Part shown: positions 50,730 through 53,280 of the stretch, in pieces
Numbering within the stretch: the stretch's first letter is position 1
Layout of the letters: each line of letters opens with the position of its first letter
Origin: Lachnospiraceae bacterium
GTDB taxonomy: Bacteria > Bacillota > Clostridia > Lachnospirales > Lachnospiraceae
Direction of reading: 5' to 3'
Length of the DNA: 64,000 bases
NCBI GenBank assembly: GCA_014804795.1
Contig: JAAUZC010000053.1
Coordinates: 1-64,000, forward strand
The notes under the pieces: model-generated
Databases searched by the model: none
What the model was told of the DNA's origin: nothing
Seen by the model: only the letters and a program-made list of their open reading frames with translations
Position numbers and translations under genes: made by a program

Positions 50730-50823
50730 AAATTCGCAATTAAATTTTAAAAACAAAAAAGAATAAAAAAATTTAAAAAATTTTCAAAAAATGTATTGAC
50801 AATTCGAAAGAGAGTGCTATAAT
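50730..50823 (+). promoter_or_regulatory. Very strong promoter with upstream A/T tracts
   Basis: TTGACA (50796-50801), 16 bp, TATAAT (50818-50823), both full consensus. About 60 bp of A- and T-tracts directly precede it, like a UP element. This is the sort of promoter seen on stable RNA genes. Confidence 0.85.
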
Positions 50824-50829
50824 TAAATC

Positions 50830-51545
50830 ATAAACAACAGAGAGAAAAAAGAAAAGGCGGTACGGTCCAATGAGAAGTTAAATCGAAACTGAATCATACT
50901 AAGATAAAGGTGGTACAGACCAATGGACAGGTAAAGTGGAAAAGAAAGACCTGAAAGAAAAAACGAAAGAGGTAAGGGCCAATGGACAGATAAAGTTCAA
51001 ACCCCGAATGATTATTAAAATAAAACATGATAAGGCGGTACAAACCAATGGGCCATTAAAGAGAATTCCGAATTGAATATAGCGAAAGCGGTATAAACCG
51101 AAATAGAGCAATATAAAGAAAGTTTTACAGTGAAAAGCAATAAGGGGAAAGCCGGGATCGGGATAGAAAGATAAGTAAATACGATAAAGCCTGATGAAAA
51201 GGGCAGTTCAGAAATGGATTGATGGTACAACGGTAAGAACCGATGAATATATAAATCATGAAATCTAAGCAAAGGAGGTACGGACCACCTAAAACATAGA
51301 CTTTAACCATAAAAGAATATGGATCTTGAAACAAGCTGAAGCGGACGAGTACATCTGAAAGAGTAACGGGAGAGAGAAGAAAACGAGAAGACGTTACAGT
51401 ACACAAGTACAAGAGTAGAGAGTATGGAAAGAATGCAGAAGACCAAAAATTACATATAGATCACTATAAGAAAATGGAGGGAAAACCATTGGACACAATA
51501 GTTTAGAAGAGGGTATTAGTCAGGAAAGATTAATACCCTCTCTTC
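50830..51545 (+). ncRNA. Unrecognised ~0.7-kb purine-rich RNA with repeated minimal ORFs
   Basis: The region has a consensus promoter, a terminator and no long ORF. It holds degenerate repeats of an AAGGNGG + GGT-NNNN-ACC + AATG block. The GGT..CC ten-mers begin at 50859, 50912, 50971, 51037, 51090, 51232 and 51277, with a weaker copy at 51479. In five copies the ATG is followed by two sense codons and TAA: 50870 (AGA AGT), 50923 (GAC AGG), 50982 (GAC AGA), 51048 (GGC CAT) and 51243 (AAT ATA). The copies at 51090 and 51277 have lost the ATG, although 51271-51278 is a perfect AAAGGAGG. Pyrimidines are rare: I counted 13 of 60 in both 50941-51000 and 51361-51420. I recognise no RNA family. It may act as a ribosome- or protein-binding RNA; that is inference. 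Confidence 0.6.
51504..51545 (+). terminator. Terminator of the purine-rich RNA
   Basis: AGAGGGTATTA (51507-51517) / TAATACCCTCT (51531-51541), 11-bp perfect stem, then CTTCATG; a T-run follows at 51560. Confidence 0.8.
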
Positions 51546-51675: not shown

Positions 51676-53280
51676 ATGAGAAAAAGCAAAAACTCAGAGA
51701 AAGAATATAGAAAAAAACATTTTTTTGCAGCAGACGATGAATATGATGATGACATTGATGACGATGAAGACGACGACGTTGATGAAGAAGACGATGAAGA
51801 GGATGATGACGTTGATGATGAAGATGACATTGACGATGATGAAGAAGATGATGACGATGAAGAAGACGATGACGACGATGTTGATGAGATAGAAGAAGAC
51901 GATGAAGAGGACAGTTGGAGCAGAGAGGATGAGAAGCGTGCGCGCAGGCGGTCACGCCGTATCAGAAACCAGATTCTGGCTTATGCAGTAGTAGTGATTC
52001 TGATAGGCGGTGCCTTAGGCGGTTTCTTCCTGGGGGGCAGAAAGCTTATTCAGAAATATCAGGCAAATAAGCGGGAAAAGGAGATACAGGAGCAGTTAGA
52101 AGCATTGGATAAGGAAGAGCCGGTTGTTGATATAACAGAGCCGACAGAAGAAGATGTCCAGAGTGAGGAACCGGCAGCGCTTAGTCCTCTGGATGAAATT
52201 GTGACGGCGCGAATTGCAGAAATGCCATTGGAAGATAAAGTTGCTGCTTTATTTATGATAACGCCGGAACAGCTTACGGGTGTAACCAATGTAACGAAAG
52301 CCGGGGATACGACGAAGACGGCGCTTACACAGTATAAGGTGGGCGGACTTGTCTATGCGGAAAGCAATATTACCGATGCAGATCAGTTGAAAGAGCTGTT
52401 GAAAAATACAGCGCTGATCGATCAGACACTGTTTTTGGCGGTGAATGAGGAGGGCGGAGAAAATTCCACGGTGGCTTCCAAACTTTCTGTGACAGAAGTT
52501 CCGGATATGGCGTCGGTAAACGGTGCGGATGGCGCTTATGAGGCAGGGAGTAATACAGGAGCCTATCTTGCAGAGTACGGCTTCAATTTAAATCTTGCGC
52601 CGGTTGCGGATGTAAAAATATCAGAGGAAAGTATTCTTGGAAACAGAAGTTTCGGTTCTGATGCAGGGCAGGTTGGCGAGATGGCAGCTTCCTATGTGCG
52701 GGGACTGACACAGATGGACGTCAGTGCCTGTGTGAAGACTTTTCCGGGGCTGGGGGCAGTGACGAAGTCTACAGCGGACGGCATGGCGGATACGCCGCGC
52801 AGCCTGGGCGAGATGGAGGCAGCGGAGTTATCTGCATATCAGGCGGCGATAAGCGCCGGAAGCGAGTTTGTTATGGTAGGGACAATATCAGCGCCGGAAT
52901 TGACCGGTGGTGATAATACGCCGTGTTGTTTCTCATCGTCTGTGGTAGGATTGCTTCGAAATAATCTGGGATATGATGGGATTGTGATCACAGGTGCATT
53001 GGATGAAGCTTCCGTGAAAGATTATTATACATCGGCGGAAGCGGCGGAAAAGGCTTTGCGGGCGGGAGCTGATATGATCTATATGCCTGAGAACTTTAAA
53101 GATGCCTATGAAGGGCTGCTGCAGACCGCGCAGGCAGATGAGGGATTACAGAGCCGTATCGATGAAGCGCTGCTTCGAATTTATCGTGTGAAGTATAAAG
53201 GGAGAGTCGCCATAGCATCCGGGGAAGAAATCGGCGGAGCGGAAGAAGGCGCCGGTGAGGAAAATATACCGGAAGAGTAA
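51676..53280 (+). CDS. Degenerate GH3/NagZ-like membrane-anchored protein
   Basis: 534 residues. Residues ~19-82 are almost pure Asp/Glu, followed by an Arg/Lys patch and one membrane helix (about 96-118), so the rest lies outside. Residues ~175-520 have the fold pattern of GH3 beta-N-acetylhexosaminidases: MPLEDKVAALFMITPEQLTG, NLAPVADV, ILGNRSFGSDAGQV, KTFPGLG, then GYDGIVITGAL and KALRAGADMIYMPENF. The catalytic residues are gone: the KHFPG His is Thr355, no DSH/DTH dyad follows, and the nucleophile Asp of the TDAL motif is Gly440. It is probably a binding or structural protein rather than an enzyme. It starts 130 bp after the RNA locus. Confidence 0.85.
   Translation: MRKSKNSEKEYRKKHFFAADDEYDDDIDDDEDDDVDEEDDEEDDDVDDEDDIDDDEEDDDDEEDDDDDVDEIEEDDEEDSWSREDEKRARRRSRRIRNQILAYAVVVILIGGALGGFFLGGRKLIQKYQANKREKEIQEQLEALDKEEPVVDITEPTEEDVQSEEPAALSPLDEIVTARIAEMPLEDKVAALFMITPEQLTGVTNVTKAGDTTKTALTQYKVGGLVYAESNITDADQLKELLKNTALIDQTLFLAVNEEGGENSTVASKLSVTEVPDMASVNGADGAYEAGSNTGAYLAEYGFNLNLAPVADVKISEESILGNRSFGSDAGQVGEMAASYVRGLTQMDVSACVKTFPGLGAVTKSTADGMADTPRSLGEMEAAELSAYQAAISAGSEFVMVGTISAPELTGGDNTPCCFSSSVVGLLRNNLGYDGIVITGALDEASVKDYYTSAEAAEKALRAGADMIYMPENFKDAYEGLLQTAQADEGLQSRIDEALLRIYRVKYKGRVAIASGEEIGGAEEGAGEENIPEE

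Follow-up and report, generated by a model that had tools for sequence, protein, structure and literature searches.

The region between positions 50,830 and 51,545 of the 64,000-nucleotide stretch of Lachnospiraceae DNA analysed here (the window) appears to be a stand-alone RNA gene of gut bacteria, previously undescribed, whose conserved parts are probable ribosome-entry sites. The motif that is repeated along it reads as a row of tiny ribosome-entry sites, not as a small hairpin. To judge from the sequences of its relatives, the RNA would recruit ribosomes at its two ends and, in the window's genus, at additional tandem mini-genes as well; we hold with about even confidence that engaging ribosomes is central to what it does.

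The copies of the motif probably lie within one transcript, since a promoter precedes them and a terminator-like hairpin follows (Table 1). A promoter of the TTGACA...TATAAT type was seen upstream of the core of nearly all homologues, mostly at a distance of 54–690 nt. The window RNA is 45% A and 24% G, has a folding z-score of -5.7 against 20 shuffles and contains no plus-strand ORF >46 aa. Rfam release 15 gave no match to it above the gathering threshold, and E<=10 added two chance-level matches only. Homologues in 12 loci likewise had no match at gathering, and 12 further loci searched at E<=0.5 gave one strong match beside the RNA, to Clostridiales-1, with the rest below gathering. That Clostridiales-1 RNA (RF01699) lies at L012:2197-2363, near a family member and on the other strand of that locus; a 6S RNA (L072:5181-5360) also shares its contig with a family member. 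Within open-licence papers, we found no published description of the RNA, its motifs or its mini-ORF/terminator layout.

Table 1. Features of the candidate RNA gene in the window (SD, Shine–Dalgarno-like box)
Feature	Coordinates	Strand	Details
Promoter TTGACA-16-TATAAT, TG ahead of -10	50796..50823	+	12/12 consensus matches; predicted transcription start near 50830
Whole RNA gene, ~715 nt	50830..51545	+	ends predicted from promoter and hairpin
Mini-gene 1 (MRS*)	50852..50881	+	SD AAAAGGCGGT 50852-50861; AUG AGA AGU UAA 50870-50881; homologous MRK*, MRR*
Mini-gene 2 (MDR*)	50906..50934	+	SD AAAGGTGGT 50906-50914; AUG GAC AGG UAA 50923-50934
Mini-gene 3 (MDR*)	50965..50993	+	SD GAAAGAGGT 50965-50973; AUG GAC AGA UAA 50982-50993
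Mini-gene 4 (MGH*)	51032..51059	+	SD AAGGCGGT 51032-51039; AUG GGC CAU UAA 51048-51059
Degenerate unit 5	51085..51106	+	GGTATAAACC; AAA in place of start; TAG 51104-51106
Unit 6 (MNI*)	51231..51254	+	weak SD; AUG AAU AUA UAA 51243-51254
Core SD site	51271..51299	+	AAAGGAGGT 51271-51279, pairs along 9 nt with the 16S 3′ end of relatives; no start codon (CCT there); UAG in register
Helix GTAACG/CGTTAC (51363-51397), then GTAC/GTAC (51399-51410)	51363..51410	+	7 genus members
Terminal mini-ORF MDTIV*	51476..51506	+	SD GGAGGG 51476-51481; UUG GAC ACA AUA GUU UAG 51489-51506
Terminal hairpin, terminator-like, poor U-tract	51508..51541	+	14-nt arms, 93% complementary; family covariation

The repeated ten-mer and its start–stop units

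An earlier note on this DNA had described seven ten-mers of the form GGTANNNNCC, and all seven are present, at 50859, 50912, 50971, 51037, 51090, 51232 and 51277. They are real and far more abundant than chance would allow: in dinucleotide shuffles of 50834-51545 such ten-mers averaged 0.107 and never exceeded 2, and the longer pattern GGTN5CC[AG]ATG, seen five times, had a mean of 0.001 in the same shuffles. The note also placed the end of each ten-mer one base ahead of a start codon. This holds for five copies (50859, 50912, 50971, 51037 and 51232) and fails for the other two, as the start position is occupied by AAA and then TAG at the 51090 copy and by CCT at the 51277 copy.

The ten-mers had been read as GGU-NNNN-ACC mini-hairpins, and pairing of this kind is indeed possible in five of the seven window copies; the third pair is a U-G wobble at 50971 and U-U at 50859. 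The GG and CC ends are constant, but the outer G-C pairs were set by the search pattern and are therefore uninformative on covariation. The test falls on the one pair that varies, x of GGx with y of yCC, which in 46 non-redundant start-type units was Watson–Crick in 14, U-G in four and unpaired in 28. These 18 paired units compare with a permutation mean of 18.6 (P 0.71), and the 13 of 19 start-less units that pair compare with a mean of 12.2 (P 0.53). Selection on structure, as proposed in the note, thus finds no excess pairing behind it, and the homologous units showed no covariation at this pair, the very outcome that the note had named as counting against its hairpin. We rejected the mini-hairpin on this result and give next to no weight to its being a structural or protein-binding element. 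Ribosome contact, which the note had offered as the other option, is backed by each unit's SD box together with its start codon and early in-frame stop, so that its interpretation is partly supported overall.

In the window, each AUG copy is followed by exactly two sense codons and then TAA, giving MRS*, MDR*, MDR*, MGH* and MNI*, a layout that the note had overlooked. The start–stop units are spaced 45–66 nt apart, approximately one ribosome. Homologous units were collected from 112 regions (48.5 kb) with a pattern that did not extend to the stop codon, yielding 99 motif-plus-start units, of which 50 were left after dropping those >80% alike; the window's genus contributes about half of these non-redundant units, and a few chance matches (e.g. 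L024, L037 and L160) stayed in the count. Among the 50, the start codon's frame is closed by a stop within two sense codons in 35/47 units, against 6/44 and 2/45 for the other two frames. The units accordingly show the arrangement that defines a mini-gene, namely an SD, a start, one or two codons and an in-frame stop. The encoded residues vary freely (MRS, MDR, MGH, MEA, MGT, MRT, MKS, MQK, MFR) and the start/stop layout is kept. Distant lineages have the identical layout with other residues (MEA, MEI, MGT, MRT, MKS, MKT and MQK, and MFR outside the Lachnospiraceae), and the position of degenerate unit 5 is an AUG in some homologues, as in the MGDIV* of L004. The tandem arrangement of mini-genes is a lineage-specific expansion in the window's genus.

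Two- to three-codon mini-genes of the lambda bar type consist of an SD, an AUG, one or two codons and UAA. The mg2 mini-gene of axe-txe resembles the units here in having the same four components, and differs in sitting within an mRNA, where the present units stand in tandem and compose an RNA gene (PMC8708949). That source states that mini-gene toxicity is raised by a two-codon mini-ORF, by a strong SD and by a UAA stop, and that drop-off is faster at UAA (PMC8708949).

The conserved ends of the RNA

Family members have in common a 5′ SD site, in most cases start-less, and at the 3′ end a mini-ORF of five codons whose stop lies against a strongly covarying terminator-like hairpin. AAAGGAGGU, the core of the 5′ site, can pair along 9 nt with the 3′ end of 16S rRNA; no 16S gene was found in the assembly of the window's own genome, so the comparison uses relatives, four of which have the 16S tail GGATCACCTCCTTTCT. 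CCN follows the core where a start codon would stand. The core sequence, including CCACC, was part of the search pattern, which in part accounts for its invariance. In the unit's frame, 38 of 54 non-redundant cores have a stop no more than three codons on, versus 9 and 11 for the two alternative frames; the chance match L024 is still included in these counts and in the core alignment. The 9 belong to frame +1, with UAA one base further on, so that UAA may be conserved partly as a sequence element rather than as a stop codon, and these frame +1 stops weaken a purely translational reading of the core. To avoid the bias of the core pattern, 18 Lachnospiraceae loci were chosen from the terminal model alone and read by eye: the 5′ SD was start-less in 13, an AUG unit in two and not seen in three (one stretch may stop short of its promoter), and a terminal mini-ORF closed ahead of the hairpin in all 18. 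RNAalifold returned just four weak pairs on the core. The core reads ACGGA, ACAGA, ACGGU or ACAGU, and the conserved GGA in hairpin loops expected of a CsrA-type sponge was not found there.

A strong SD can stabilise an RNA in Bacillus even without an initiation codon (PMC3997798). The core has the sequence attributes of such a STAB-SD, being strong, complementary to the 16S 3′ end and start-less, with the proviso that CCACC was in the search pattern. The Bacillus stabilisers (cry, ermC and the SP82 polypurine leaders) are like the RNA described here in the start-less strong SD, its 5′ position and the purine-rich RNA; the present RNA differs in being stand-alone, with no downstream protein gene, in its in-register stops and in its 3′ mini-ORF (PMC3997798).

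At the other end, a start codon stands 10–45 nt ahead of the hairpin in 68 of the 82 loci with a candidate, a count that includes near-identical loci and from which three more were excluded as chance matches. The last base of this frame's stop lies between -1 and +6 nt relative to the base of the hairpin in 63 of the 68; stops in the other frames scatter. The start is UUG in 35 loci, AUG in 31 and GUG in two; the regex, which limited its first base to A/T/G, included the start codon and the GGA and fixed the GA of codon 2, making their invariance partly one of construction. The 39 distinct five-codon ORFs end in TGA (15), TAG (13) or TAA (11), and their codon 2, of which the third base was free in the regex, encodes Asp in 37 and Glu in two. 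Codon 3 switches between synonyms, and AGC/AGT, AAC/AAT and GAA/GAG occur as synonymous pairs among the 39. Loci missed by the regex still close a mini-ORF at the hairpin (the L019 group, MYSIS* in L079 and MTYAIRK* in L082). In the hairpin itself, 92.8% of cells are paired and 123 are double-change cells, versus 37 in shuffled and <=23 in slid controls. Many members have a poor U-tract, and a strict terminator scan of the window made no call at the hairpin. Minimal RNAs also occur: L157 and L158 have little beyond promoter, terminal unit and hairpin.

Distribution and genomic context

The window RNA matched 13 of 61 genomes, among them all nine that were searched of its genus, and in five of these (L001–L005) a single match covered nearly the whole query. 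The 23-nt core pattern occurred in at least 118 stretches, of which 80 were made into loci; most are titled Lachnospiraceae or Roseburia, Blautia, Enterocloster or Mediterraneibacter. Roseburia inulinivorans (L065) and Blautia schinkii (L039) are among the carriers. At E<=1e-3, the core model matched 83 and the terminal-module model 126 of 200 Lachnospiraceae genomes. With the threshold at E<=1e-6 the terminal model matched 182 of 397 Lachnospiraceae genomes, in 71 of 145 genera, and more than half of the genomes had no match.

Across the class, the terminal model has a noise floor at E<=1e-3, where 42 of 243 genomes matched, eight of them from Lachnospiraceae; the core model matched 8 of 293, five from Lachnospiraceae. 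The core-model matches in G270 and G451 have E of about 9e-4. The unit pattern was found in 6 of 283 class genomes (five outside Lachnospiraceae), against two for the reversed control. The full layout, of promoter-like sequence, one or more 5′ mini-genes and a terminal mini-ORF ahead of a hairpin, was seen in G384 and G323, from one family, and in G273, from another. The mini-genes in other Clostridia families are three copies of MFR*, the third closing with TAG (L166), MYK* (L172), MYR* (L176) and MR* (L177), each accompanied by a terminal mini-ORF before a hairpin, and LDIKxEQ is common to L166, L172 and L177. The window RNA is a member of an RNA family that Rfam lacks, widespread in Lachnospiraceae and also present in a few other Clostridia. 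Three candidates were rejected: G288 (L165), the sole terminal-model match outside Lachnospiraceae at E<=1e-6, in which no such unit was seen; L024 (Verrucomicrobiota), a chance match inside an opposite-strand ORF of 1429 aa; and G439, which looks like coding sequence. G482, from another Clostridia family, has SD-AUG-two codons-stop mini-genes, MVY* and MNP*, between protein genes (L179 and L181).

Leader-peptide attenuators contain a short ORF that ends at a terminator-like hairpin. A cis leader of this type, in which translation of the terminal mini-ORF blocks terminator formation and controls the next gene, would account for a stop that overlaps or abuts the hairpin base, and one downstream gene family is common to 21 of 83 loci. 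However, neighbouring genes at these 83 loci form 43 upstream and 29 downstream clusters, and 33 of the loci have a convergent gene downstream. The number of downstream clusters and the convergent genes make a cis leader very improbable, and we rejected the leader/attenuator reading on its neighbours: unlike attenuators, the RNA has no conserved regulated downstream gene. In the window, the downstream gene (51676-53280), a member of the family found in those 21 loci, encodes a protein with a very acidic, Asp/Glu-rich N-terminus. No viral contig contained the core pattern and no plasmid matched the window RNA; a mobile element or phage RNA was rejected on these searches.

Candidate functions

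The units, the promoter, the in-frame stops, the covariation of the terminal hairpin and the distribution of the family are read directly from sequence, and the sequence supports ribosome binding well; transcription, translation, abundance, effect on the cell and the purpose of the binding are what we infer. The start-less strong SD near the 5′ side would bind the 16S 3′ end. At the tandem SD-AUG-two codons-stop mini-genes, ribosomes would start and stop almost on the spot, and the five-codon mini-ORF abutting the 3′ hairpin would likewise cause near-immediate start and stop. Ribosomes bound in this way could shield both ends of the purine-rich RNA, and the RNA, when abundant, could act as a regulator or decoy that holds ribosomes or 30S subunits. 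We conclude that the RNA is made to engage ribosomes at its two ends and, in the window's genus, over its 5′ half as well. Engagement may be merely protective or, by holding ribosomes, the function itself, and on present sequence comparisons about half of our weight lies with its being central. We put forward more tentatively, as a possibility short of that, a translated yet non-coding RNA gene of Clostridia that parks initiating or terminating ribosomes and titrates 30S subunits, initiator tRNA or release factors.

If the ribosome sites were only protective, the middle of the RNA would do the work, for example through a hairpin with the loop UGACGAGAAAG or through lineage-specific target pairing. 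The stabilisation of Bacillus RNAs by start-less strong SDs and polypurine leaders, reported in PMC3997798, is in keeping with this, as is the hairpin itself, which occurs in 28 of 92 distinct transcripts (e.g. L023, L030, L090 and L154). Its loop served as the search word; in 22 distinct sequences, 88.6% of the cells in the stem are paired and 49 are double-change cells, versus 13.8 in shuffles. A covarying hairpin with an invariant loop in some RNAs suggests a function beyond ribosome binding. However, conservation is lowest in the middle, this hairpin is missing from the window RNA, and the minimal RNAs L157 and L158 have next to no middle, which leaves a working middle rather unlikely, though deserving of attention. 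That the gene is a tiny mRNA which exists to make the tripeptides or a terminal peptide of five residues (M-D-polar-[IVE]-x) is improbable: the bias of codon 2 to Asp, the synonymous changes among distinct ORFs and the shared LDIKxEQ speak for it, but residues 3–5 and all the tripeptides vary widely, and the GA of codon 2 was set by the regex, with Gly there in L157 and Tyr in L079. Many GGAGG-like boxes would suit a sponge that captures C/U-rich regulatory RNAs whose usual partners are SD sequences, but this leaves start codons with in-frame stops unexplained and we consider it highly improbable.

On the ribosome-engaging reading, and if the RNA is expressed as its promoter suggests, dominant gut bacteria would carry an abundant ribosome-engaging RNA that makes no protein. 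It would connect the stability of RNA with mini-gene translation and with the availability of ribosomes, and would offer natural mini-genes for the study of initiation, early termination and drop-off. Genes of this kind can escape both ORF-based annotation and structure-based RNA discovery. For Clostridium phytofermentans, an unidentified non-coding unit with very strong initiation has been reported (PMC5171806); we found no link between that unit and the RNA family.

Further structure was seen in some of the RNAs. The start of mini-gene 1, GUCCAAUG (50865-50872), can pair over 8 bp with the terminal start, CAUUGGAC (51487-51494), in seven members of the genus, with no exception and no variation, and through this helix the two sites could mask each other in the window's genus. 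As a family-wide feature, pairing between the first 5′ unit and the terminal start was rejected (-9.6 kcal/mol for own versus -9.97 kcal/mol for swapped partners, P 0.86; 22 non-redundant RNAs of 63). In the same number of genus members, the GTAACG/CGTTAC helix (6 bp) has 42 paired and 0 unpaired cells and the GTAC/GTAC helix (4 bp) 28 and 0, with no double changes; GTACAT..GTAACG was found in 11 of 92 distinct transcripts. The UGACGAGAAAG sequence forms the loop of the terminal hairpin in L047 and L077. An element of the TTCATATAGA/AATATAGA type recurs mid-RNA (L011, L019, L023, L072 and others), a loose pattern for it being found in 31 of 92 distinct transcripts.
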